NCBI GenBank assembly: GCA_913778495.1
Contig: CAJYVD010000024.1
Coordinates: 1-46,812 of the forward strand
From: an uncultured Pantoea sp.
Lineage (GTDB): Bacteria; Pseudomonadota; Gammaproteobacteria; Enterobacterales; Enterobacteriaceae
Length of the DNA stretch: 46,812 bases
Reading direction: 5' to 3'
Shown: in pieces, positions 2,083 to 46,805 of the stretch
Position numbering within the stretch: position 1 is the stretch's first letter
How the letters are laid out: every line of letters begins with the position of its first letter
Notes under the pieces: generated by a model
The model's input: the letters and a program-made list of their open reading frames with translations, nothing else
The model's database searches: none
Told to the model about the DNA's origin: nothing
Translations under genes and position numbers: made by a program

Positions 2083-3330
2083 CTAAAGATGACGGCGCTG
2101 TAGACGCCAGCCCACCAACAGGGCCATCAGCAGCAGAAGGCCAATGAAAAGCGTCACGCCGGACCAGCCGTAGCGATGCCAGAACACGCCGCCAAGGGTC
2201 CCGGCCACGCTGGAACCGGCGTAGTAGCTAAACAGATAGAGAGACGAGGCCTGGCCTTTAGCGCGTCGCGCGCGCGGGCCAATCCAGCCGCTGGCAACCG
2301 AATGGGCCGCAAAGAAGCCGGCGGTAAACAGCATCATGCCGGGCAAAATAAGCCACAGTGAGGTAAACGCGGTGAGCAGCAGGCCACACAGCATGATCGC
2401 GGTGGCGCTCAGCAGAACCGGACCGCGCCCCCAGCGGCCGGTAAGGGCACCCGCTCGAGGGGAACTCCACGACCCGGTGAGATACACCACCGACAGCAGG
2501 CCGACCACCGCCTGGCTCAGCGACCAGGGCGCCGCCAGCAGACGATAGCCAATATAGTTAAACAGCGTGACAAACGCGCCCATCAGTAAAAAGCCCTCGG
2601 CAAACAGCAGCGGCAAGCCCTGATCGCGCCAGTGAAGGCGGAAGTGGATCAGCAAACTGCGCGGCCGCAGTGAGGCAGGGCGAAAATGACGCGACGGCGG
2701 TAAAATTTTCCAGAACATCACCGCACCGGCTAAGGCAAAGCAGCCGATGGCGCCAACGGCCACGCGCCACGAAAAGAAGTCGGTAAGCACGCCGCTGATT
2801 AAGCGACCGCTCATGCCGCCAATCGAGTTGCCGCTGATATACAACCCCATAGAGAACGCGATCACGCGCGGATGCATCTCCTCGCTCAGGTAGGTCATGC
2901 CCACCGCCGCTACGCCGCTCAGCGCCAGGCCCGTGAGCGCGCGCATCAGCAGAATGCCGTGCCAACTTTGCATGGTGGCGGCCACCAGCGTGCAGAGCGC
3001 GGCGAGCGTCAGACCGGTCACCATCACCGATTTGCGGCCCACCGCGTCCGATACCGGCCCGGTAATCAGCAGCGCCAGCGCCATCAGGCCGGTAGAGAGC
3101 GAGAGCGAGACGCTGCTGGCCGCCGGCGAGATGTCAAACTGCGCCGAGAGCACGGGCAAGATGGGCTGCACACAATACAGCAGCGCAAACGTGGCGAGTC
3201 CGGCGGAGAACAGGGCCAGCGTGACGCGCATAAACTGCGGCGAGCCGCGCTCGATTTTTGCGGATGTGGGGACAGCGATGTGGGTAACCGCCTGCTCTTC
3301 AAGCGGCACCGTTCGGGAAAGGCGGCTCAC
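2083..3330 (-). CDS. ynfM: MFS transporter YnfM
   Basis: 415-aa inner-membrane major facilitator protein, twelve predicted segments, strongly similar throughout to E. coli YnfM: the segments GTPQFMRVTLALFSAGLATF-like (here GSPQFMRV...), SMGLYISGNSIGGMSGRLIS and SLYLFSYYAGSSVAGTLGG are all recognisable. The substrate is not established; arabinose-type sugar or drug efflux has been suggested for the family. I choose the GTG at 3330 because GGAGG sits four bases before it; the reading frame stays open upstream to 3408, but that part runs into the ynfL promoter region. It diverges from its probable regulator ynfL, as in E. coli. Confidence 0.93.
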   Translation of the reverse strand: MSRLSRTVPLEEQAVTHIAVPTSAKIERGSPQFMRVTLALFSAGLATFALLYCVQPILPVLSAQFDISPAASSVSLSLSTGLMALALLITGPVSDAVGRKSVMVTGLTLAALCTLVAATMQSWHGILLMRALTGLALSGVAAVGMTYLSEEMHPRVIAFSMGLYISGNSIGGMSGRLISGVLTDFFSWRVAVGAIGCFALAGAVMFWKILPPSRHFRPASLRPRSLLIHFRLHWRDQGLPLLFAEGFLLMGAFVTLFNYIGYRLLAAPWSLSQAVVGLLSVVYLTGSWSSPRAGALTGRWGRGPVLLSATAIMLCGLLLTAFTSLWLILPGMMLFTAGFFAAHSVASGWIGPRARRAKGQASSLYLFSYYAGSSVAGTLGGVFWHRYGWSGVTLFIGLLLLMALLVGWRLQRRHL

Positions 3331-3402
3331 AAAACCTCCATAGGTCAAACATAATGTGCTTACTGTAGAAGCCGCCAAATAGGTTGTACAATATATTAAT
3401 AA

Positions 3403-3414
3403 TCTCAATTGAGA
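3403..3414 (+). promoter_or_regulatory. Perfect palindrome before ynfL, candidate YnfL operator
   Basis: TCTCAATTGAGA is a perfect 12-bp palindrome 10 bp before the ynfL start, in the 94-bp ynfM/ynfL divergent region. It has the T-N10-A form typical of LysR-family sites, so autorepression by YnfL is a reasonable guess. Confidence 0.4.
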
Positions 3415-3424
3415 CGTTTAAAAT

Positions 3425-4321
3425 ATGAATATCGAGCTGCGTCACCTGCGTTATTTTATTGCTGTTGCTGAGGAGCTGCATTTTGGTCGCGCCGCGGAGC
3501 GTTTGCGCATTTCTCAGCCGCCGCTTAGCCAGCAGATTCAGCAGCTGGAGCAGATCCTCGCGGCGCAGCTTTTCACTCGCACCAACCGCAGCGTCCAGCT
3601 GACGCCTGCGGGCGCTTCGTTTCTGACAGATGCGCGCGCGGTGCTGCTGCACGTCGAGCAAGCTGCGCAGCGTGCCGCGCGCATTCACAGCGGGCAGCAG
3701 GGCGAGTTGCGTATCGGTTTTACCTCGTCAGCGCCCTTCACCGGGCTGGTCTCCGATGCGCTTTACCAGTTCCGTCAGCGCTGGCCGGAGGTGCATATTC
3801 ATATGCAGGAGAACAATACGCGCCAGCAGCTTACTCCGCTGCATGAAGGTCGACTCGATTTAGGCGTGATGCGTAATACCACGCTGCCGCCCGATCTCCA
3901 GCATCGGGTACTGCTGCGTGAGCCGCTGTGTGCGGTAGTGCATCGCGCCCATGCGCTGGCGGCGGCCACCACGCTGCCGATACAGGCGCTCTCCTCTGAA
4001 CCGTTTGTGTTCTTTGATCCGCAAGGCGGTACGGCGCTACACGGCGAGATCCTCGCGCTGTTGCATCGCTATCAGATCACGCCCTTTATTACCCAAGAAG
4101 TGGGGGAAGCCATGACGATCCTCGGGTTAGTGGCGACCGGGTTGGGCGTCTCTATCTTACCGGCCTCGTTTGCACGGGCGCGCCTGCCGGAAGTGGTGTG
4201 GATCCCGCTTGAGGAACACGATGCAGTCTCGGAAGTGTGGCTGGTATGGTCGGCGGTGCGGGAACCCAGCGCCCAGCTACGCAACATGATGTCGCTGTTA
4301 CTGCCGCGCGACCTGCACTAA
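3425..4321 (+). CDS. ynfL: LysR-family regulator YnfL
   Basis: 298 aa, the usual LysR size. The winged helix-turn-helix occupies residues 1-60 (ELRHLRYFIAVAEELHFGRA, then the ISQPPLSQQIQQLE recognition helix). The co-inducer domain follows from about 90, with the family segments RIGFTSSAPF, FVFFDPQGGT and QEVGEAMTILGLVATGLGVS shared with E. coli YnfL. It is divergent from ynfM, the classical arrangement for a LysR activator and its transporter target. The effector is unknown. Confidence 0.93.
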   Translation: MNIELRHLRYFIAVAEELHFGRAAERLRISQPPLSQQIQQLEQILAAQLFTRTNRSVQLTPAGASFLTDARAVLLHVEQAAQRAARIHSGQQGELRIGFTSSAPFTGLVSDALYQFRQRWPEVHIHMQENNTRQQLTPLHEGRLDLGVMRNTTLPPDLQHRVLLREPLCAVVHRAHALAAATTLPIQALSSEPFVFFDPQGGTALHGEILALLHRYQITPFITQEVGEAMTILGLVATGLGVSILPASFARARLPEVVWIPLEEHDAVSEVWLVWSAVREPSAQLRNMMSLLLPRDLH

Positions 4322-4331
4322 GCAGACAGGA

Positions 4332-4353
4332 ATATGTGCGATAAATCACATTT
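4332..4353 (+). promoter_or_regulatory. CRP-like site upstream of mlc
   Basis: The core TGTGCGATAAATCACA has correctly spaced half-sites (TGTG / TCACA); about 17 of 22 positions fit the consensus. It lies about 90 bp before the mlc start. CRP control of mlc is known in E. coli, which supports the call. Confidence 0.6.
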
Positions 4354-4403
4354 CTAATCAAATATTTGACGCTGCCAGGAAATCTGCCCCACCATAGCGG
4401 ATC

Positions 4404-4426
4404 TTTATTTAGAAGCGCGAAAATAT
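4404..4426 (+). promoter_or_regulatory. Candidate Mlc operator (autoregulation)
   Basis: The 23-bp stretch contains TTATTT, a five-base spacer and CGCGAAAATA, matching the known form of Mlc sites (A/T-rich half, then CGCGAAA). It ends 13 bp before the mlc start codon, so binding would block transcription or early elongation. Mlc is known to repress its own gene in E. coli. Confidence 0.6.
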
Positions 4427-4439
4427 CCGGGAGCAGGGC

Positions 4440-5657
4440 GTGAATCAGGAGAGTCAGCCTGGGCATATTGACCAGATTAAACAGACCAACGCAGGCGTGG
4501 TTTACCGGCTGATTGACCAGCATGGCCCGATTTCGCGTATTGAGCTTTCCAAGCGTGCACAGCTGGCGCCCGCCAGCATTACCAAAATTGTGCGTGAGAT
4601 GTTGGACGCGCATTTGGTGCAGGAGACGGAGTTTCAGGAGCCAGGCAGTCGTGGACGTCCTGCCATCGGTCTGGTGCTGGATACCGACGCCTGGCACTAT
4701 CTCGCCATGCGTATTCAGCCAGGTCAGTTAACCCTGACGCTACGCGATCTCAGCAGCCGCGCGCTGCAAGAGGATCGCTTGCCGCTGCCGCTCGACAGTG
4801 GGCAGCCGCTGCTGCAAACCTTGCTGGAGCAGGTTAATGCGTTTTTCGTGCGTTACCAGCACAAGCTGGAGCGCCTGACAGCCATTGCCATCACGCTGCC
4901 CGGCCTGTTGCACGCGCCGTCCGGCGTGGTGCACCGCATGCCGGGCTATGATGTGCAGGATATGCCGCTGGGTGAGACGCTCTCAACGCGTACCGGGCTG
5001 CCGGTATTCGTGCAGCACGACATTTCTGCCTGGACGCTGGCCGAAGCGCTGTTTGGCGCCTCGCGCGGGGCGCAGGATGTTATCCAGATCGTGATTGACG
5101 AAACGGTGGGGGCGGGCGTCATCAGCGCCGGGCATCTGCTGCATAAAAGCGGACGTGCACTGGTGGAGATTGGCCACACGCAGATCGACCCCTACGGTGA
5201 ACAGTGCTACTGCGGCAATCATGGCTGTCTTGAAACCGTGGCCAGCATGGGCAGCTTGCTGCAACTGGCCGCGCAGCGCTTACCCTCCCAATCCGACAGC
5301 ATACTGAATCACACGCCGCTTACCGTGCAGAGTTTGTGTGACGCGGCGCAGCAGGGCGATCGCCTCGCGCGCGACGTCATCGCTGGCGTGGGACATCACA
5401 TTGGCCGCATGCTGGCCATGATGGTCAATATCTTTAATCCGCAGCGCATCCTGATTGGGTCGCCGTTAAATCACGCCGGAGAGGTGCTGTTTCCGGCGGT
5501 GATCAACACCATTCGTCAGCAGGCGCTGCCCGTCTACAGCCAGACGATCCAGCTGACGCCCACCGCGTTTGCCGATCCCGGCACGCTGGGCGCGGCGGCG
5601 CTGATCAAAGACGCGCTGTATAGCGGCACGCTGCTGGTGAAACTGCTGCAGGGCTAA
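4440..5657 (+). CDS. mlc: Global sugar-regulation repressor Mlc (ROK family)
   Basis: 405-aa ROK-family repressor. In E. coli, Mlc represses ptsG, manXYZ, malT and ptsHI and is pulled to the membrane by dephosphorylated EIICB-Glc. The helix-turn-helix is at about residues 32-56 (SRIELSKRAQLAPASITK). The ROK zinc site is intact: H246 and C256, C258, C263 in CYCGNHGC. The amphipathic C-terminal tail (LVKLLQG) needed for tetramer and EIIB binding is present. GTG start at 4440 with GGGAG upstream. Order ynfL-mlc-bioD2 is as in E. coli. Confidence 0.96.
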   Translation: MNQESQPGHIDQIKQTNAGVVYRLIDQHGPISRIELSKRAQLAPASITKIVREMLDAHLVQETEFQEPGSRGRPAIGLVLDTDAWHYLAMRIQPGQLTLTLRDLSSRALQEDRLPLPLDSGQPLLQTLLEQVNAFFVRYQHKLERLTAIAITLPGLLHAPSGVVHRMPGYDVQDMPLGETLSTRTGLPVFVQHDISAWTLAEALFGASRGAQDVIQIVIDETVGAGVISAGHLLHKSGRALVEIGHTQIDPYGEQCYCGNHGCLETVASMGSLLQLAAQRLPSQSDSILNHTPLTVQSLCDAAQQGDRLARDVIAGVGHHIGRMLAMMVNIFNPQRILIGSPLNHAGEVLFPAVINTIRQQALPVYSQTIQLTPTAFADPGTLGAAALIKDALYSGTLLVKLLQG

Positions 5658-5762
5658 CCGGCATCCCACTTAACTTTGCGCTAACGCAAGCTCTGCCGCG
5701 TTATCATTCCTTACACTGCCTTCTCAGCGCGTTGCCAAGCGCTTCACAGAAGGAGAAGTAAG

Positions 5763-6458
5763 GTGAAAACACTTTTTGTCACCGGCACCGACACGGCGGT
5801 GGGAAAGACGGTGGTCTCCCGCGCCCTGTTACAGTGTTGCGCACAGGCCGGGTTGCGTGCGGTAGGTTACAAACCCGTGGCGCGCGACGCTCAGCCTGGC
5901 GCAGAAGGGCCTCGCAGCAAAGATGCGCTGCTCCTGCTGCAATCTTCTGCGATTGATCTGCCTTATCACGCGATCAACCCTGTCGCACTGCTCGACGGCG
6001 ACAGGGGCCGCGCTCCGTCGCTGGATTACGCTTTGCTCAATCAGGGACTCACCGCGTTGCAGCACCGCGCCGATCGGGTGATTGTTGAGGGCACCGGCGG
6101 ATGGCGCTGCCTGATGAACGACAATCAGCCGCTCTCAAACTGGGTGAAGCAGGCGCAGCTGCCGGTGGTGCTGGTTGTGGGGATCAAAGAAGGGTGCATC
6201 AGTCATGCGTTACTCACGGCAGAAGCCATTGTCGCGGACGGATTACCGTTTGCCGGTTGGGTGGCGAACCGCATTAATCCCGGCCTGGCGCACTATGCGG
6301 ATATCATCGCGCGGCTAACGCAGCGGCTGCCTGGCCCGCTACTGGGGGAGTTACCCTATTTGCCGCGCGCGGAACAGCGCGACTTAACGCCTTATATCGA
6401 TATGTCGAGGTTAGCAGAGGGTCTGTGGTCGGGTACGCCGTCCGCCCCTGCGGCCTGA
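5763..6458 (+). CDS. bioD2: Dethiobiotin synthetase-like protein BioD2 (YnfK)
   Basis: 231-aa paralogue of BioD. BioD forms the ureido ring of dethiobiotin from 7,8-diaminopelargonic acid, CO2 and ATP in the cytoplasm. Walker A is GTDTAVGKT (residues 8-16), K37 of the YKPV motif is present, and the EGTGGW loop replaces the usual EGAGG. The gene next to mlc in E. coli is ynfK, whose own role is not settled; biotin synthesis normally uses the bioA-linked bioD. GTG start at 5763 with AAGGAG seven bases before it. The 105-bp gap after mlc holds a short hairpin (TTGCG/CGCAA), so it may share the mlc transcript. Confidence 0.88.
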   Translation: MKTLFVTGTDTAVGKTVVSRALLQCCAQAGLRAVGYKPVARDAQPGAEGPRSKDALLLLQSSAIDLPYHAINPVALLDGDRGRAPSLDYALLNQGLTALQHRADRVIVEGTGGWRCLMNDNQPLSNWVKQAQLPVVLVVGIKEGCISHALLTAEAIVADGLPFAGWVANRINPGLAHYADIIARLTQRLPGPLLGELPYLPRAEQRDLTPYIDMSRLAEGLWSGTPSAPAA

Positions 6459-6460
6459 GG

Positions 6461-6484
6461 CGCGGCATCGGATGTAATGCCGCG
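6461..6484. terminator. Hairpin between convergent bioD2 and osmV
   Basis: CGCGGCAT / ATGCCGCG form an 8-bp stem with an 8-nt loop, between the bioD2 stop (6458) and the osmV stop (6512). It is placed to end both transcripts but lacks a U-tract in either direction. Confidence 0.4.
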
Positions 6485-6511
6485 GCAGCCTTCCGGCCAC
6501 CGCGGTGAGTT

Positions 6512-7648
6512 TTACGGATTCAGCCTGCGGCGCGTCCGGCCTGAACTGAGGTAATCCGCGATATAATCCTGAGAGATCTCGCCGCTGTAGCGTCCCTCTT
6601 CATCGACAATCGGCATCCACACGGTGTTGTGTTCATACAGCTTCGACAGCACCACGCGCAGGTTCTCTTCCGCTTTACCGGTGACTTTGAACGTGTGCAA
6701 AATCTCCTCGCAGCGTCCGGCTGCGCCGCGTGCTTCGCGCCGTTTGACAAAGCCCAGCGGTTTACCTGCTTCATCGACCACGGTAATCGAACGCATGTCG
6801 TTGTCATCCATGGTGGCAAACGCCTCTTGCAGCGGCGTGCTGCGCTGCACGGTGATGGTGGGCTGCTGATCGGTCACGTCTCCCGCCTGAACCAAAAGCA
6901 GGCGTTTCAGCGTACGATCCTGGCCGACAAACGAACCGACGAAGTCATTGGCGGGCTGCGCCAGCAGTTCGTCCGGGCTGGCGCACTGCACGATTTTGCC
7001 CTGACCAAATACCGCAATGCGATCGCCCAGCTTCAGCGCTTCATCGATATCATGGCTCACCAGCATCACGGTCTTTTTCAGCTGGCGCTGCATGTCGAGA
7101 AACTCGTTCTGGATCACTTCGCGGTTAATCGGGTCAACGGCGCCAAAAGGTTCGTCCATGAGCAATACCGGTGGATCCGCGGCCAGCGCGCGGATCACGC
7201 CGATGCGCTGCTGCTGACCGCCGGACATCTCACGCGGGTAGCGATGCAGGAATTTAGTAGGGTCCAACGCCACCATACTCATCAGTTCGGTGGCGCGTTC
7301 GCGGCAGCGTTTCTTGTCCCAGCCCAGCATGCGCGGCACCACGGTGATGTTTTCTTCAATGGTCATGTTGGGAAACAGACCAATTTGCTGGATAACATAG
7401 CCAATGTTGCGGCGTAGGGTAACGGTATCCAGCCCGCTGGTGTCTTCACCGTTGATCAGGATTTTTCCGCTGCTGGCGGGGATCAGGCGGTTAATCATTT
7501 TCAGCGTGGTGGTTTTGCCGCAGCCTGAAGGGCCGAGCAGCACGCACATCTCGCCCGCCGGAACGTGCAGGCTAACGTTATCCACCGCATTGAACGCGGT
7601 GCCGTTTTTCTGCGTAAAGGTTTTCGTCAGGTTTTCCAGCTTTATCAT
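6512..7648 (-). CDS. osmV: Osmoprotectant ABC transporter ATPase OsmV
   Basis: 378-aa ATP-binding subunit of a glycine betaine/choline-type importer, very close to Salmonella OsmV. Walker A GPSGCGKT is at residues 39-46, followed by a Q-loop, signature MSGGQQQR and Walker B LLMDEPF. The last ~120 residues form a CBS-domain pair, typical of osmosensing OpuA/ProV-type ATPases, ending in the conserved EISQDYIADYLSSGRTRR. Its ATG overlaps the osmW stop by one base (TAATG), so the two are translationally coupled. It is the last gene of the leftward operon osmY-osmX-osmW-osmV. Confidence 0.95.
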   Translation of the reverse strand: MIKLENLTKTFTQKNGTAFNAVDNVSLHVPAGEMCVLLGPSGCGKTTTLKMINRLIPASSGKILINGEDTSGLDTVTLRRNIGYVIQQIGLFPNMTIEENITVVPRMLGWDKKRCRERATELMSMVALDPTKFLHRYPREMSGGQQQRIGVIRALAADPPVLLMDEPFGAVDPINREVIQNEFLDMQRQLKKTVMLVSHDIDEALKLGDRIAVFGQGKIVQCASPDELLAQPANDFVGSFVGQDRTLKRLLLVQAGDVTDQQPTITVQRSTPLQEAFATMDDNDMRSITVVDEAGKPLGFVKRREARGAAGRCEEILHTFKVTGKAEENLRVVLSKLYEHNTVWMPIVDEEGRYSGEISQDYIADYLSSGRTRRRLNP

Positions 7649-40259: not shown

Positions 40260-40997
40260 ATGTTTACACCGCTTTTCACCGCCGCGCGGGTCTTCTGCGC
40301 ACGTTTATGGCCACATCCTCTGCCCGTTGGCAAAAAGCAGCGGGTGATTGCCAGCGTGGGGACCGGTTTAGGATTACTGATCACCAGTTTGGTCAGCCAT
40401 GCGCTGCTGGGCGAAGTGAATCTGTGGTTTGTAGCGCCGATGGGCGCCTCGGCGGTGCTGCTATTTGGTTTACCCAGCAGCCCGCTGGCTCAGCCGTGGT
40501 CCATTATTGGCGGCAATACGGTGGCCGCCGCGATTGGCGTTACCGTTGCTCAATGGGTATCGGATCCGGCCGTCGCATGTGGCGTCGCCGCTGGCCTGGC
40601 CATGTTGGCGATGTTTCAACTGCGTTGTTTGCATCCCCCCAGCGGCGCAATTGCGCTCACGGCAGTGTTAGGCGGCGACGGCGTGCAGCAGTTGGGTTAT
40701 CACTTCATTGTGGCGCCGGTATTGATCAATTCACTGTGCCTGGCCCTGCTGGCGCTGCTGTTTAACCCCCTCGCCGGGCGGCGTTACCCTCACCCGCTTG
40801 CGAATGAGAGCCAACCACAACCTATCGCGCTGGCGACGCCGATCACGCGCGATGATCTTCATCAGGCGCTGGAAAGCGGCGAGTTGCTGGATATTGATGA
40901 AGCGGATGTGCAGCAGTTGCTGCAGCGCGCTGAGACGATTGCGCTGCGCCGTCTACAGCAACCCGCGTCCGCTAGCGTGTCTAAACGGCGAAGCTGA
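40260..40997 (+). CDS. HPP-family inner-membrane protein
   Basis: 245 aa with four membrane segments and the family signature [16 protein letters not shown]. Other marks are [20 protein letters not shown] and [10 protein letters not shown]. The C-terminal ~50 residues ([20 protein letters not shown]) are a short soluble piece where longer members carry CBS domains. Cyanobacterial and plant relatives move nitrite; the role here is unknown. Its last 17 bp overlap the 3' end of the convergent metallophosphoesterase gene. Confidence 0.85.
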
Positions 40998-41898
40998 TGC
41001 TAGCTTCGCCGCCAAATCCCTGCATAGTCACCCGATCTTCGCTGATTTCTACCACGGCAAACGGCACCGTATCGGGGCCGTTCAGCATCCCTTTGAGCGT
41101 GAAAAAGCCTGTTTGGCCTCTCATTGCACGGTTGCCTTTGTGGTCATGTCCTGCAAAACAACATGGTATGTTGTAACTAGTAACGAGATCAACTAACACG
41201 TTGCTGTTCATTAGGTTGTGCCGCGTCAGGGGCGCGAGCGGATAATGCCCAAAAACGACAACGCGCTCGCCGCAGCGCTGCGCCTGCTGAAACTGCTGTT
41301 CTATCCAGGCCAGCTGCTGCTGCCCGACCGCCCCATTCCACGGCTCGGCCTGCGGCTGTTCCTGTAGGCGCAGTGCGTGTAATAAGGTCTCGGCCTGGTA
41401 GCGGTCATCGCCGTTAAGCGCGTTGCAGTAGAGGCTGACGTCATTGCCGTCATAAATCACAAAACGCCAGCCCGGCAGACGAAACGCGTAGTAGCATTTG
41501 GGCAGCGCGGCGCGATCGGCCAACAACGTGCCGAGCGCTAACGCGTCATGGTTGCCCAGCACTATCGCATGCGGATGAATAAGCCGCGCATAGAGCGGCA
41601 ACACGCTGGCGTAATCCGCGGCGTGGCGATCGACGATATCCCCCAACGTCACCACAAAATCTAGCGGCTGTTGATTGAAGGCAGCGATCGCCTGCGGCAG
41701 CTTTTGCAGCGCATGGCGGTAATAGAGTTGCTGCGCGACATCAGCGTCCACGTCGGCATATTGCGGATCGGTCATCAGACCAAAGCGCAAGGTCGTGCTA
41801 TTGCGTAGCGTGCGCCCCACCGCTGGCGGCGTGAATAGCGCGGCGGCCTCGCCCAGCAGCGCACGCTGGGTGGCGCTCAGTGCACAGGGATAATCCAT
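40981..41898 (-). CDS. ADPRibase-Mn/CDP-alcohol phosphohydrolase-like metallophosphoesterase
   Basis: 305 aa, no signal peptide. The calcineurin-like dimetal site is complete: D44 in MTDPQYAD, GD87IVD, GNHD 115-118, H218 in FGHYPL and the GHDH at 250-253. The surroundings (FGLMTDPQYAD, YYRHALQKLPQAI, CFAGHDHKG) resemble ADPRibase-Mn enzymes that cleave ADP-ribose and CDP-alcohols, more than GpdQ or UgpQ. It is the last gene of an ABC operon, 12 bp after a permease, so it probably cleaves the imported substrate in the cytoplasm. The start ATG 41898 has GAGGAG 8 bases before it. Confidence 0.85.
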   Translation of the reverse strand: MDYPCALSATQRALLGEAAALFTPPAVGRTLRNSTTLRFGLMTDPQYADVDADVAQQLYYRHALQKLPQAIAAFNQQPLDFVVTLGDIVDRHAADYASVLPLYARLIHPHAIVLGNHDALALGTLLADRAALPKCYYAFRLPGWRFVIYDGNDVSLYCNALNGDDRYQAETLLHALRLQEQPQAEPWNGAVGQQQLAWIEQQFQQAQRCGERVVVFGHYPLAPLTRHNLMNSNVLVDLVTSYNIPCCFAGHDHKGNRAMRGQTGFFTLKGMLNGPDTVPFAVVEISEDRVTMQGFGGEASISFAV

Positions 41899-41910
41899 CA
41901 CCTTCTCTCC

Positions 41911-42729
41911 TCAACGAATACCGGCTCGCATAAAGGACTGCACAAACTGGCGCTGGAACAGCAGAAACAGCACCAGCAGCGGCAGCGTGGTCATCAAGGT
42001 TCCGGCACCAATCAGCGCCCACTGCACGCCCTGCTCCGGCGCGGAAAAGAGCTGTAGGCCAACGGTCAGTGGCCGCACATTGACCGAGTCGGCGATGACG
42101 AGCGGCCAAAGAAAATCGTTCCAGTGAAAGCTTATCGAGACCAACACAAAGGCCATATAGGTCGGCTTTGCCAGCGGCACGTAGAGCTTCCGCAGGATAT
42201 AGAGGCGGCTGGCCCCTTCCATCACTGCCGCCTCTTCCAGCACGCGCGGTATTCCCTTGAAGGTTTGCCTTAACAGGAAGATGGCAAAAGCGGAGGCGAA
42301 GTACGGCAGCGCAATACCGGTCAGGGTGTCGCGCAGGCCGAGTGCGCTGATGGTTTTATAATTATTGAGGATCAGCACGTCAGGGCTGATCATTAGCTGC
42401 AGCAAGATCAGGGCAAACAGCACGCCGCCGAATTTCAGTTCATACCGCACCAGCGCATAAGCCGCCAGCGTAGCGAGAACCAGCTGCACTACCACAATCA
42501 TCAGCACCAGCAGCGTGGTGTTGATGAAGTAGCGCGCGAACGGCGCGGCGTGCCAGGCCGCAACAAAATTATCCAGCGTCAGCGGTGAGAACAGTTCAAA
42601 GTGACCCTGCTGCGCGGTTGGATGAATGGCGACCCAGATGGCCGTAAGAATGGGCAAACACCACAGCAGCGCCGCCAGCCAGAGCGTTATGTTAAGCGCC
42701 AGGCGGCCCGGCGAAAACGGCGTGTTCAT
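41911..42729 (-). CDS. UgpE/MalG-like ABC permease
   Basis: 272-aa inner-membrane permease with about six segments and the EAA coupling loop EEAAVMEGASRLYILRKLYV. The class is the carbohydrate/glycerol-phosphate family (MalG, UgpE). Its ATG overlaps the stop of the other permease by four bases (ATGA), so the pair is translated together. Confidence 0.9.
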   Translation of the reverse strand: MNTPFSPGRLALNITLWLAALLWCLPILTAIWVAIHPTAQQGHFELFSPLTLDNFVAAWHAAPFARYFINTTLLVLMIVVVQLVLATLAAYALVRYELKFGGVLFALILLQLMISPDVLILNNYKTISALGLRDTLTGIALPYFASAFAIFLLRQTFKGIPRVLEEAAVMEGASRLYILRKLYVPLAKPTYMAFVLVSISFHWNDFLWPLVIADSVNVRPLTVGLQLFSAPEQGVQWALIGAGTLMTTLPLLVLFLLFQRQFVQSFMRAGIR

Positions 42730-43634
42730 TGATAGTGCGCTCGCTTATCCAGAAGTTTGAATTTCAACAGCGCAACCGCGGCCAGGATCACCAGTAGCAC
42801 CACCGTCATGGCCGCCGCCGCAGGCAGGTTCCAATAGCTAAACGCGGTGCGGTAAATGTAAAACAGCAACAGACTGGTGCTGTTATCGGGCCCGCCGTTG
42901 GTTAGCGCAATGACCTGATCGACAATGCGAAAGGCGTTCATCGCGGCGTTAATCAGGACAAACAGCGTGGTCGGCATCAGCAGCGGCCACTGCACGCGGC
43001 GGAAAAAGTACAGGCGCGAGGCCCCCTCAATGGTCGCCGCCTCGCCTAAGCGCGGATCGATTTGCTGCAGTGCGGCAAGATAGAAGATCATAAAAAAGCC
43101 CGCTTCTCGCCAAATCGACACCGCCATCAGGCTATAGAGCGCCGTGTCCGGCTCACCCAGCCAGTTCACTGCCGGCAGCGAAAACAGCGCAAGGCACTTA
43201 TTGAGCAGCCCAAGCTGCGGCGTATAGAAAAACAGCCAAAGATTGGCGATGGCGATCATCGGCAGCAGTGAGGGAATAAAAAACGCCGCGCGCAGCAGCG
43301 CGGTGCCGCGCAGGCGTTGATTGACCGCCAGCGCCATCAGGAGCGCCAGCATCACGGCCAGCGGCACCGTGATCAGCGCATAGCGCAGCGTATTCCACAG
43401 CGATTGAATGAAGATATCGTCATCCAGCAGCGCCGCGTAGTTATCCAGCCCGACAAAATGGGCGGGATGCGTCGCGCGCGACGCGCTGAACAGGCTTTCC
43501 CACAGGGTGGCGACCGCCGGGTAGTGCGTGAACAGCAGCAAAAAACTCATTGCCGGCAGCAACAGCAGATACCCGTAGATCTGCGCGGACATGACGCGTG
43601 TCCGCGCTGGACGTAAAGCCAGTGTGCGCATCAC
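42726..43634 (-). CDS. UgpA/MalF-like ABC permease
   Basis: 302-aa permease; six segments, EAA loop GEAATIEGASRLYFFRRVQW. It has the longer N-terminus and periplasmic loop expected of the UgpA type. It overlaps the binding-protein gene by four bases and the next permease by four. Confidence 0.9.
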   Translation of the reverse strand: MMRTLALRPARTRVMSAQIYGYLLLLPAMSFLLLFTHYPAVATLWESLFSASRATHPAHFVGLDNYAALLDDDIFIQSLWNTLRYALITVPLAVMLALLMALAVNQRLRGTALLRAAFFIPSLLPMIAIANLWLFFYTPQLGLLNKCLALFSLPAVNWLGEPDTALYSLMAVSIWREAGFFMIFYLAALQQIDPRLGEAATIEGASRLYFFRRVQWPLLMPTTLFVLINAAMNAFRIVDQVIALTNGGPDNSTSLLLFYIYRTAFSYWNLPAAAAMTVVLLVILAAVALLKFKLLDKRAHYQ

Positions 43635-44905
43635 TGATAGGGTTTCAACAGGCGGTCGGCTTGTTTCTGCGCGCTTTCCAGCGCCTCAGCCGGGGTTTTA
43701 CTCTGGGTGACGGCGGCTTCAATGGCGTGATTCAACGTTTCCTGAATCTGCACGCTGTTATAGGTGGAGAGTTCGGGTTGCGCATACTTTAGCTGCTCAC
43801 GTGCCACCAACGCCTGGGGAACCGCTTTGACGTAGTCTTTCATCGCGGGCGTTTCCCATGCCCCAGGCGACGTTGCCACATAGCCCGTGGCAATACTCCA
43901 GCGCGCAGCTTGTTCCGGCGAGGTCACCCAGCGAATAAAGGCCATGGCCGCTTTTTGCTGCGCCGGCGAGGCGCTACTGAACACATACAGATTACCGCCG
44001 CCGGTGGGACTTCCGCGCTGGGTTTTCTCCGGCAGCATTGCGACGCCGAACGGGAATTTTGCATTCTCACGCACGTTGGCCAAATTCCCGGTGGTGGTGA
44101 CCATCATGGCGGTTTTGCCGTTAATAAAGTCCTGTGGCGTGGTGCCCCATGCCACCGCGCCCTTCGGCGACACCTGCTCTTTTTGCCCCAGATCGCTCAG
44201 CCACTGCAGCGTTTCAACGTTGGCTGGCGTATTAAAGGTGACCGCCGTGCCTTTGCCGTTATCAAGATGACCGCCGTTGGTGGCCGCCAGCCCCTGGAAA
44301 TTCCAGTAGCCGTTTGGCGTTGAGGGAATTTCAATCCCCCACTGCGTCACGCCGCTGGCGTCCTTGAGCGTTAATTTTTTGCCAAAATCCACCACTTGCT
44401 GCCACGTCGCGGGTGGTGTGTCGCCGTTTAAGCCCGCTTTATCAAAGGCCTGCTTGTTCCAATACAGCACCACGGTCGAGCGCTGAAACGGCACGCCCCA
44501 TATTTTGCCATTGATGGGACGCAGAAAGGCCGGATAGAACCCTTTCAGCCACGCCTTGCCCGCGTCATCGTTCGCTAAATCGCTGGCGGCGACAATCGCG
44601 CCAGCATCCATGAGCGAATAGGCTTCGATATCCCCCATCACCGCTATCTGCGGCGCATTACCGCCGCGAAATGCGGTTAACGCCTTGGTGACCGTGGTGG
44701 CGTAATCACCGGTGTAAACCGGCTGAATATGCACATCGGGATGCGTACGTTCGAAGTCGGAGACCAGCGATTCCACGGTGTGGCTCACTTTGCCGCCGAC
44801 CGCAATCGGGTAGTACATCTGAAGCGTGACCGACTCAGCGGCACAGGCCGCGGTCGCAGACAACAGCAAAGCACAAGCCAGGCGTGAATAGCGAATTGCA
44901 GACAT
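43631..44905 (-). CDS. UgpB-like periplasmic substrate-binding protein
   Basis: 424 aa. A signal peptide (MSAIRYSRLACALLLSATAACA-AE) precedes an extracellular solute-binding protein of family 1. Features are YPIAVGGKVSHTVESLVSDF, NAPQIAVMGDIEAYSLMDAG, WGVPFQRSTVVLYWNKQAF and a C-terminal KTPAEALESAQKQADRLL. YPIAVGGK and the F-x-R-STVVLYWN motif agree with UgpB-type proteins that hold glycerol phosphate or its diesters. ATG at 44905 with AAGGAA 6 bases upstream. Confidence 0.9.
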   Translation of the reverse strand: MSAIRYSRLACALLLSATAACAAESVTLQMYYPIAVGGKVSHTVESLVSDFERTHPDVHIQPVYTGDYATTVTKALTAFRGGNAPQIAVMGDIEAYSLMDAGAIVAASDLANDDAGKAWLKGFYPAFLRPINGKIWGVPFQRSTVVLYWNKQAFDKAGLNGDTPPATWQQVVDFGKKLTLKDASGVTQWGIEIPSTPNGYWNFQGLAATNGGHLDNGKGTAVTFNTPANVETLQWLSDLGQKEQVSPKGAVAWGTTPQDFINGKTAMMVTTTGNLANVRENAKFPFGVAMLPEKTQRGSPTGGGNLYVFSSASPAQQKAAMAFIRWVTSPEQAARWSIATGYVATSPGAWETPAMKDYVKAVPQALVAREQLKYAQPELSTYNSVQIQETLNHAIEAAVTQSKTPAEALESAQKQADRLLKPYQ

Positions 44906-44931
44906 GCGTTTTCCTTGGGCAAAAACAACAG

Positions 44932-46035
44932 TTAAACAGCGTATTTTTTTTCGTTGTCGGTCAGTCTCTGCTCGGCCGCGGCGCAGCGCTGCCCGCTGCG
45001 GCTGGAGAACAGGTATTGGCGCGCAGCGGACCACTGCAGGCCGACCGATTCCCCTTCGTTAAAACGTTGCAGACCGGGGATTTTTACAATCAGGGGCGCC
45101 GTCATCGCCGGAAGCTGGCAGGCCAGCAGCGTGTCCGCGCCCATATATTCATAACTGATCGCCCGCGCGACCAGCGCCGATGAGGTTGGCGCGGTGACGT
45201 CGATATCCTCTGCGCGCAGGCCGAGGCTGAGCGATTCTGCGCAGGGATACGTCACCACCGGAGCCGCGAGCGTACTGAGATAATGGTTCTCGCCGCGCGC
45301 CTGAAGCGGCAGGATGTTCATCGGTGGCGCACCGATGAATTGGGCGGCGAAAAGGCTGGCGGGCTGGTGATAGAGCGCCTCCGGCGTGCCGATTTGCTCT
45401 ATTTTTCCGGCGTTGAGCAGAATGATGCTGTCCGCCATGCTCATGGCTTCAGTTTGGTCGTGCGTCACGTAGATTAAGGTGAGGCCCAGTTTCTTTTGCA
45501 GCGCGCGAATGTCACGGCGCATGCTCTGGCGCAGGCGCGCATCGAGGTTCGACAGCGGCTCATCCATCAGGCACAGCCTGTGGTTAGCAATCACCGCCCT
45601 TCCCAGCGCCACGCGCTGTTGCTGACCGCCCGACAGTTGCGACGGTAAACGCTCAAGCAGGTTATCCAACTCCAGCAGGCTGCTGACATCGTGCAGGCGT
45701 GCTCCGAAGGTCTGCTTGTCCTCGCCGCGCGCTTTCAGGCCAAACAGCAGATTTTCCCGCACGTTGAGATGAGGAAACAGCGCGTAAGATTGAAACACCA
45801 TTGAGAGCTTGCGCTGTGACGGCGGCAGATGCGTGACGTCCTGCTGCTGCAGCTGAATCTGCCCTTCATCCGCGCTTTCCAATCCGGCAATGGTGCGCAA
45901 CAGCGTGGTTTTGCCACATCCCGATGGCCCGAGCAGAGCCACAAAGTTGCCGGGTTCAACGGTGAAGCTGATGTCGTTCAGGGCAAGGTAATCACCCCAG
46001 GTTTTTTTGATGTGATGAAGCGAAAGAGCGCTCAT
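44932..46035 (-). CDS. UgpC/MalK-like ABC transporter ATPase
   Basis: 367 aa, first gene of the operon. Walker A GPSGCGKT (36-43), Q-loop MVFQSYALFPH, signature LSGGQQQR, Walker B CLMDEPLSNLD and H-loop VTHDQTEAM are all present. The C-terminal TOBE/OB regulatory domain of MalK/UgpC ATPases spans about 235-350. Having the ATPase first differs from ugpBAECQ in E. coli. A Pho box lies 48-87 bp before its start. Confidence 0.92.
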   Translation of the reverse strand: MSALSLHHIKKTWGDYLALNDISFTVEPGNFVALLGPSGCGKTTLLRTIAGLESADEGQIQLQQQDVTHLPPSQRKLSMVFQSYALFPHLNVRENLLFGLKARGEDKQTFGARLHDVSSLLELDNLLERLPSQLSGGQQQRVALGRAVIANHRLCLMDEPLSNLDARLRQSMRRDIRALQKKLGLTLIYVTHDQTEAMSMADSIILLNAGKIEQIGTPEALYHQPASLFAAQFIGAPPMNILPLQARGENHYLSTLAAPVVTYPCAESLSLGLRAEDIDVTAPTSSALVARAISYEYMGADTLLACQLPAMTAPLIVKIPGLQRFNEGESVGLQWSAARQYLFSSRSGQRCAAAEQRLTDNEKKYAV

Positions 46036-46066
46036 GCCGCCACGGTCCTGAAATCAGAATGGCGGT

Positions 46067-46072
46067 AAGCTA
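46067..46072 (-). promoter_or_regulatory. Candidate -10 hexamer of the ABC/phosphoesterase operon
   Basis: On the minus strand TAGCTT lies 10 nt after the last Pho repeat and about 31 nt before the ATPase ATG. This is the spacing of PhoB-activated promoters, where the Pho box replaces the -35 element. Confidence 0.5.
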
Positions 46073-46082
46073 GCGCAGCGGG

Positions 46083-46122
46083 ATGAAGGTTTTATGGCAG
46101 CGTGATGACGGGAGGATGACCT
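46083..46122 (-). promoter_or_regulatory. Pho box: four repeats at 11-bp period
   Basis: Read on the minus strand, AGGTCAT, CCGTCAT, CTGCCAT and CCTTCAT occur in a row, each separated by four bases (CCTC, CACG, AAAA). PhoB binds 7-bp CTGTCAT-like units at exactly 11-bp period. All four units end in CAT and the third (CTGCCAT) differs from the consensus at one base. Confidence 0.75.
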
Positions 46123-46140: not shown

Positions 46141-46192
46141 GGCGGGAGTCCGGCCCGCCAGGCCAGTGGTTGTGAGCGGGGTCCGGCCGCTC
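46141..46192. repeat. Tandem pair of covarying hairpins with GTCCGG centre
   Basis: Unit 1 (46141-46159) has arms GGCGGG/CCCGCC; unit 2 (46174-46192) has arms GAGCGG/CCGCTC. The middle (A/G)GTCCGG is kept. Three stem pairs differ between the units and all three are changed on both arms. The stems extend outward by one or two further pairs. Confidence 0.7.
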
Positions 46193-46293
46193 ATGCCGGT
46201 TTGTGTTGCGCGGGCTTGCGCGTTGGCCGCTGCGCTGGCCTGGCCCTGAGCAGGTTCCGCCCGCTAACCGCACGGCAGTTTCAGCCGCACCGC

Positions 46294-46354
46294 TGCGGCG
46301 TACGGGCAAAGGGCCGATGGCGCGGCCCTTTGCAATCCGCGCCCTGCGCCAGCC
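46294..46354. repeat. Structured intergenic repeat, right copy (inverted to the left copy)
   Basis: GCAAAGGGCCG (46306-46316) and CGGCCCTTTGC (46323-46333) form a perfect 11-bp stem with a 6-nt loop. GCCCTGCGCCAGCC (46341-46354) is the exact complement of 14-27. Compared with the left copy, three stem pairs have changed, each on both arms. Confidence 0.75.
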
Positions 46355-46387
46355 TGCGCTGTTCCCTCACTCCGCCGCGCCAGCCTC

Positions 46388-46805
46388 ACGGACCGCGCGG
46401 ATTCGCCATCCCTGGCTCATTCCGCACTCTCAGCGGCATCCATGCCGCTTCGTCCTGGCCGTCACGCTCCATTCGGCGCTCCGGATGGCGCTCACAAACC
46501 TCGCCTGTGGGAATCTTTTCTTTTTTTTGGCTGGTGTTGTCTGGAAGGCTGTAAGCGGGTCAGTAAAGACAACGGCTGGCTTAAAAAGACAGAAGACAAA
46601 AGGTAAAAACTTTTTAGAAAGCAATGCGGCTTGGCTGTTACTTAAAAATCTTACCGCCACGCGGTCGCTGCGAAAAACATAAAAAACCCACAGCGAGGTT
46701 TGGTAGCGCCATCCCCACTCGCTGAACGAGTGAGGGCTTCCAGGGCGAGCGGCATGGATGCCGCGAGAGGCGGCGTTGAGCAGGAGCGAATCGACGCCGG
46801 TCCGT
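46388..46805. repeat. Inverted repeat with ~120-bp arms around an AT-rich core
   Basis: Left arm 46388-46511, right arm 46687-46805. Matching blocks: ACGGACCG (46388-46395 against 46798-46805), GCGGCATCCATGCCGC (46433-46448 against 46749-46764, identical) and a 29/28-nt block GGATGGCGCT...TGTGGG (46483-46511 against 46687-46714). The core 46512-46686 is AT-rich with a GTTGTCT/AGACAAC pair. No protein is supported inside. The repeat may extend beyond the window. Confidence 0.7.

Follow-up and report, generated by a model that had tools for sequence, protein, structure and literature searches.

The 46,812-nt window analyzed here (positions 1 to 46,812 of contig CAJYVD010000024.1, our C24, in the 4.09-Mb assembly GCA_913778495.1, our G000, of an uncultured Pantoea sp.) contains a five-gene operon that, judged from its genes, promoter, and relatives, is probably a second Ugp-like phosphorus-scavenging operon, encoding an importer of (glycero)phosphodiesters that is under Pho control and whose diesterase is interchangeable. 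Five tightly packed open reading frames (ORFs) run on the minus strand from 46035 to 40981 and encode an ATP-binding cassette (ABC) ATPase, a UgpB-like binding protein, two permeases, and a dimetal phosphoesterase of the ADPRibase-Mn-like type; this layout was part of an original prediction made from the DNA sequence, and it was confirmed by the ORFs and their protein families.

Control of this importer by Pho boxes, also proposed in the original prediction, is supported by tandem units in the promoter and by their conservation. The Pho box was described as 18 nt long, with two 7-nt repeats and 4 nt between them, and was later redefined as two 11-nt units, CTGTCAT being the E. coli Pho motif (PMC4415409). 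The operon promoter has the tandem 11-bp units of the Pho regulon: four 7-bp units at an exact 11-bp period and, 10 nt past the last, a −10-like hexamer, exactly as predicted. Their four-unit score against CTGTCAT, 22/28, is the top score in the window, both strands included (18/28 at the best non-overlapping runner-up), and when the 150 bp upstream were dinucleotide-shuffled 20,000 times, none of the shuffles reached it (maximum 20). The hexamer, TAGCTT at 46072-46067, is a weak −10 element (TAnnnT), and a sigma-70 scan did not report it. Among the 28 promoters of this operon (26 distinct; 150 bp and 400 shuffles each), four-unit repeats were significant at P ≤ 0.02 in 25 and three-unit repeats in 20, and the string GCTAGCTTAC was found in 15; of 51 control regions upstream of neighboring ORFs, run with slightly different settings (250 bp, 100 shuffles), one reached P ≤ 0.02 in the four- or three-unit test.

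The enzyme gene is closely linked to the importer. It was detected in 16 of 60 relatives and in 12 of the 295 family genomes searched, with three genomes shared between these sets, giving 25 in total with the present one included. In 24 of the 25, again including the present one, it lies directly behind the four importer genes. The remaining genome, G294, has the two parts on separate contigs, with the enzyme gene on C78 and all four importer genes on C103, and the detached enzyme gene itself carries Pho-like repeats (19/28 over four units, P 0.002). Because the enzyme gene keeps such repeats after moving, this case is the strongest single hint that enzyme and importer share a function. In the wider samples, the enzyme gene was present in two of 369 genomes of the class (the present one and G614) and in 12 of 398 genomes of the phylum, eight of them outside the family; the wider surroundings of one of these eight (G750) and those of a second enzyme copy in G002 were left out.

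Several of these loci differ in detail. The 24 linked cases include G020 (locus L050), in which the enzyme gene is split in frame, as it also is in L136 (G614), and G012 (L051), in which the binding-protein gene lies in two frames and the contig ends inside the enzyme gene. In L060 (G294), the enzyme gene follows a same-strand ORF that by eye resembles a glutamine-dependent NAD synthetase, which might or might not point to a connection with NAD or ADP-ribose metabolism. Among named plasmid records, 28 contain the enzyme gene, 25 of them from Pantoea, one Pantoea match covering only 41% of the query; four Pantoea plasmid records were inspected and share the five-gene order with differing flanks, and three have replicon type rep_cluster_1232. 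The operon lies on large Pantoea plasmids of rep_cluster_1232 in L021, L024, and L020, and on contigs >4 Mb in other genomes. The plasmid pEA320 has been called LPP-1 (PMC5817063), and the LPP-1 plasmid paper (PMC3505739) does not mention the operon in those parts of its text that bear on the search terms. No description of the five-gene operon was found in the literature searched, with subscription papers lying mostly outside the search.

Table 1. Coordinates of the operon and its promoter elements in the window.
Feature	Position	Strand	Details
Four Pho units, exact 11-bp period	46083..46122	-	46122-46116 (AGGTCAT), 46111-46105 (CCGTCAT), 46100-46094 (CTGCCAT), 46089-46083 (CCTTCAT)
-10-like TAGCTT, 10 nt past last Pho unit	46067..46072	-	read from sequence
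ABC ATPase, MalK/UgpC-like, TOBE domain	44932..46035	-	PF00005, PF08402; UgpC model 374 bits (cut-off 432)
Substrate-binding protein, UgpB-like, signal-like N-terminus (by eye)	43631..44905	-	PF13416, PF01547; UgpB model 203 bits (cut-off 411)
Permease A, UgpA-like	42726..43634	-	PF00528; UgpA model 152 bits (cut-off 335)
Permease B, UgpE-like	41911..42729	-	PF00528; UgpE model 124 bits (cut-off 297)
ADPRibase-Mn-like dimetal phosphoesterase (calcineurin-like)	40981..41898	-	PF00149; best PDB match 2nxf; alternative GTG one codon upstream, at 41901

The top named models for the four importer proteins are UgpC, UgpB, UgpA, and UgpE, all of which score below their curated cut-offs. Among named relatives, Pantoea sp. 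Mb-10 has the operon most similar to this one (its enzyme is 88% identical, its other proteins 95-97%) and was also the single relative returned by a scan of genome contigs; the host is thus a Pantoea-like bacterium. A megablast search against E. coli gave zero matches. Just upstream of the Pho promoter, 46150-46640 is an interspersed repeat with 62 matches in its own assembly, itself included, seven of which (again including itself) are ∼350 bp or longer at ≥82% identity; many matches are at contig ends, and shorter ones occur in contig C23 at a spacing of ∼74 bp. Within the repeat, at 46388-46457 on the minus strand, is a TwoAYGGAY RNA motif (RF01731; 50.1 bits, gathering threshold 43). The possibility that the Pho boxes belong to this repeat was ruled out, as the 100-bp promoter stretch is present in a single copy in the assembly.

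A canonical ugpBAECQ operon is present elsewhere in the same genome (L039: ugpB, then ugpA, ugpE, ugpC, and a GDPD gene); its UgpB scores 874 bits, above the UgpB cut-off of 411, and the four-unit score of its ugpB promoter is 23/28. The five-gene operon is thus a second system parallel to ugp. The original prediction had placed a non-GDPD enzyme where UgpQ would stand, in a different gene order; the ADPRibase-Mn-like last enzyme and the different order both hold, whereas replacement of UgpQ is ruled out by the complete ugpBAECQ. Like the E. coli-type ugpBAECQ, the operon combines a Pho-boxed importer of the CUT1 kind with a presumptively cytoplasmic diesterase, and the phosphate-binding residues of UgpB are mostly retained in its binding protein. 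It differs in gene order (ATPase-binding protein-permease-permease-enzyme rather than B-A-E-C-Q), in the sequences of its proteins (about 29-42% identical to the ugp proteins of the same genome), in its last enzyme (a dimetal phosphoesterase, whereas the canonical copy has a GDPD), and in the alteration of two glycerol contacts of UgpB. The operon would work in a Ugp-like way, yet neither the curated cut-offs nor its gene order nor its last enzyme make it a member of Ugp.

Relatives of the importer extend across the phylum sample, in which the binding protein was detected at E ≤ 1e-60 in 29 of 398 genomes. Twenty regions were taken from 19 of these 29 genomes (nine of the 29 were already covered or their surroundings were not included), and in 19 of the 20 the order is ATPase, binding protein, permease, permease. 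A GlpR-like regulator adjoins the importer in nine of the 20 regions, GlpR being the top-matching model, below its cut-off, for all four regulators tested, and Pho-like repeats (three units, P ≤ 0.02) precede nine of the 20 related importers versus one of 82 controls. The one region with a different order, L115 from the Enterobacteriaceae relative G060 (2168-7134), reads permease, permease, GpdQ, ATPase, binding protein; its enzyme matches GpdQ structures 2dxl/2dxn over 274/274 residues (E 1.6e-186), 2dxn being the glycerophosphodiesterase GpdQ (PMC4528799). Like the operon in the window, L115 couples a UgpB-like importer to a dimetal metallophosphoesterase and has upstream Pho-like repeats (16/21, P 0.005), but apart from its order it also differs in a binding protein 35% identical to that of the window.

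The binding-protein tree includes 21 related systems, of which five have a GpdQ-type and two an EEP-type last enzyme; a third EEP case, L137 (G614), has the enzyme directly behind the second permease, and in L104 a distant metallophosphoesterase match lies beside the ATPase gene. L098 (G1015) contains two related importer systems back to back, one of them with a GpdQ-type enzyme. In this tree, which was midpoint-rooted, with the UgpB of the same genome on a very long branch and L051 dropped because its contig ends there, the binding proteins of the ADPRibase-Mn type are separated from all the others by a single branch (support 100/100). This pattern is best read as a wider proteobacterial family of importers, the present one included, whose last enzyme has been exchanged between unrelated diesterase folds.

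Statements on the active site, and on the binding pocket below, derive from sequence alignments and published residue numbers. In the PDB, the enzyme best matches 2nxf (E 4e-19; two aligned stretches, residues 38-94 and 184-299 of the query), the zebrafish ADPRibase-Mn (PMC3407115); before work on the human enzyme, only the rat and zebrafish ADPRibase-Mn enzymes had been studied (PMC4334965). By homology and fold the window enzyme belongs with the ADPRibase-Mn-like family (vertebrate ADP-ribose/CDP-alcohol diphosphatase), whose D-x-Q, GDxxD, GNHD, and GHxH motifs of the dimetal center it shares, and 29 of the 30 aligned rows have all five motifs (DPQ, GDxxD, GNHD, GHYP, GHDH), the exception being L050, which is cut by the broken frame. 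It differs in being encoded in a Pho-type import operon and at two places in the active site. The loop from the first motif to the conserved YYR (s2s3) is 10 residues long, versus 14 in 2nxf (10 residues in 24 of the 30 rows, eight in the other six), and has no counterpart of Phe37, which determines the ADP-ribose preference of the human enzyme (PMC4334965). Additionally, the position of Arg43, described as invariant in the family (PMC4334965), is Leu, with 18 Leu, 11 Arg, and one Cys among the 30 rows, as placed by alignment to 2nxf and by residue numbering. With the R43A change, the human enzyme lost efficiency ∼20,000-fold on ADP-ribose and ∼25,000-fold on CDP-choline, versus 200-fold on the diester 2′,3′-cAMP (PMC4334965). 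The shorter loop without Phe37 and the Leu in place of Arg43 speak for a plain phosphodiester, and against ADP-ribose and CDP-alcohols, as the substrate, with the caution that Arg and Leu both occur at position 43 among enzymes of the same operon. By sequence it does not group with the GpdQ/SpdA-type phosphodiesterases: the SpdA model gave 32.7 bits against a cut-off of 400, and GpdQ structures were not among the eight PDB matches of the enzyme at E ≤ 1. The enzyme is probably cytoplasmic, as no signal sequence was seen by eye; homologues in Microvirga and at L129 have a twin-arginine translocation (Tat)-like N-terminal sequence.

The PDB match of the binding protein is 4aq4 (UgpB; E 5.9e-47), and its pocket was compared with that of Phaeobacter UgpB (chain 9lff), for which 9/9 published residues fit one numbering offset (PMC12718374). 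Five of the nine are identical (Tyr64, Ser143, Trp188, Gly303, and Tyr342), two are changed conservatively (Glu88 to Asp, Ser266 to Thr), and two are changed outright (Trp191 to Glu, Arg393 to Gln). Among the residues that contact phosphate, Tyr64, Ser143, and Tyr342 are thus retained and Ser266 is Thr, and from these retained and altered residues the phosphate end of the pocket looks conserved and the glycerol end changed. Apart from the two outright changes, the pocket states are constant in 28/28 full rows of the clade. Outside the clade, no Gln was seen in place of Arg393, and Glu in place of Trp191 occurs in L097. The UgpB of M. tuberculosis, a glycerophosphocholine binder, likewise has Asp (its Asp102) for Glu88 but retains the Arg that is Gln here (PMC12718374).

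The gene anatomy and control sites are well supported, and the operon is likely to serve, in general terms, for importing and cleaving a phosphodiester under Pho control; for the cargo, comparative evidence makes a glycerophosphodiester, or else another plain phosphodiester, the best guess. Under low phosphate, PhoB would bind the four tandem units and turn on the five genes. In the periplasm, a phosphodiester, which is most likely a glycerophosphodiester or a small diester like it, would then be captured by the binding protein, and the ABC complex would bring it into the cell, where the dimetal enzyme would cut one P-O bond to give a phosphomonoester (e.g., glycerol phosphate) and an alcohol.

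Several observations weigh against this proposal. The Pho units were scored against the consensus CTGTCAT rather than with a weight matrix, three of the 28 operon promoters (L049, L055, and L058) failed the four-unit test and eight the three-unit test, and the importer promoter of G294 is without significant Pho-like repeats. Co-occurrence of the enzyme and the binding protein (E ≤ 1e-60) was looked for outside the family and found in only one of the eight enzyme-bearing genomes (G890); three-unit repeats at P ≤ 0.02 accompany three of seven solitary enzyme homologues in other families, which counts on both sides. Of the 21 related systems, 14 have no recognized adjacent enzyme, and L115 is the only GpdQ- or EEP-type system, of those tested, with Pho-like repeats significant at 0.02. 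In the pocket, both altered residues bear on glycerol, Arg393 contacting its hydroxyls and Trp191 clamping it, and both are replaced in 29/29 clade rows. With these replacements, recognition of glycerol may differ from that in UgpB, and the loss of Arg393 speaks against simple glycerol recognition.

The fixation of these two changes in the clade also suits a glycerol-free phosphodiester as cargo, for example a sugar phosphodiester resembling agrocinopine or xanthosan, a 2′,3′-cyclic nucleotide, or a dinucleotide, which would fit a plant-associated bacterium. A close relative of UgpB binds the dinucleotide U3G (PMC12718374), bacterial uptake and cleavage of the sugar phosphodiester xanthosan is known (PMC12807533), and 2′,3′-cAMP is the least Arg43-dependent substrate of the ADPRibase-Mn-like family (PMC4334965). 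We nevertheless consider a glycerol-free cargo unlikely, as the GlpR-like regulators and GpdQ beside related importers indicate glycerol phosphates, and the proteins that handle xanthosan, the TonB-dependent transporter XanT and the 2H phosphoesterase XanP, are from other protein families (PMC12807533). It is very unlikely that the cargo is ADP-ribose or a nucleotide-alcohol (CDP-glycerol, CDP-choline) and the enzyme a true ADP-ribose/CDP-alcohol diphosphatase: although its closest solved relative is the zebrafish ADPRibase-Mn (PMC3407115) and the dimetal motifs are nearly invariant, the loop is short, Arg43 is absent from 19 of the 30 rows, the human R43A change almost abolishes pyrophosphate hydrolysis (PMC4334965), and the binding protein is nearest to UgpB structures. 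Among the cargoes originally proposed, ADP-ribose and CDP-glycerol are accordingly disfavored, and glycerophosphodiester is retained. An ordinary glycerol-3-phosphate importer, i.e., a paralogue of Ugp to which a phosphatase is loosely attached, is suggested by the top-matching Ugp models but is highly improbable given their sub-threshold scores, the canonical ugpBAECQ already in the genome, the altered pocket, and the tight linkage of enzyme and importer.

The import and cleavage of a (glycero)phosphodiester can be extended, tentatively and with considerable doubt, to the family as a whole. Widespread Pho- and GlpR-linked phosphodiester importers might have a diesterase slot that is swapped among unrelated folds (ADPRibase-Mn, GpdQ, and EEP, with GDPD in the Ugp cousin), the pocket and enzyme of the present clade might have shifted together to a phosphodiester other than a standard glycerophosphodiester, and this bacterial branch of ADPRibase-Mn might serve phosphorus scavenging rather than ADP-ribose turnover.

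Phosphodiesters are a large pool of organic phosphorus in soil and on plants. A single literature search for GpdQ with an ABC transporter found no paper, and the systems described here, if correctly read, would give GpdQ an operon context, with an importer and Pho-like repeats. They would likewise reveal a physiological role for bacterial ADPRibase-Mn-like enzymes, and would define a phosphorus-scavenging importer whose last enzyme can be replaced by unrelated folds, such that neighboring enzymes could be used to predict its cargo.

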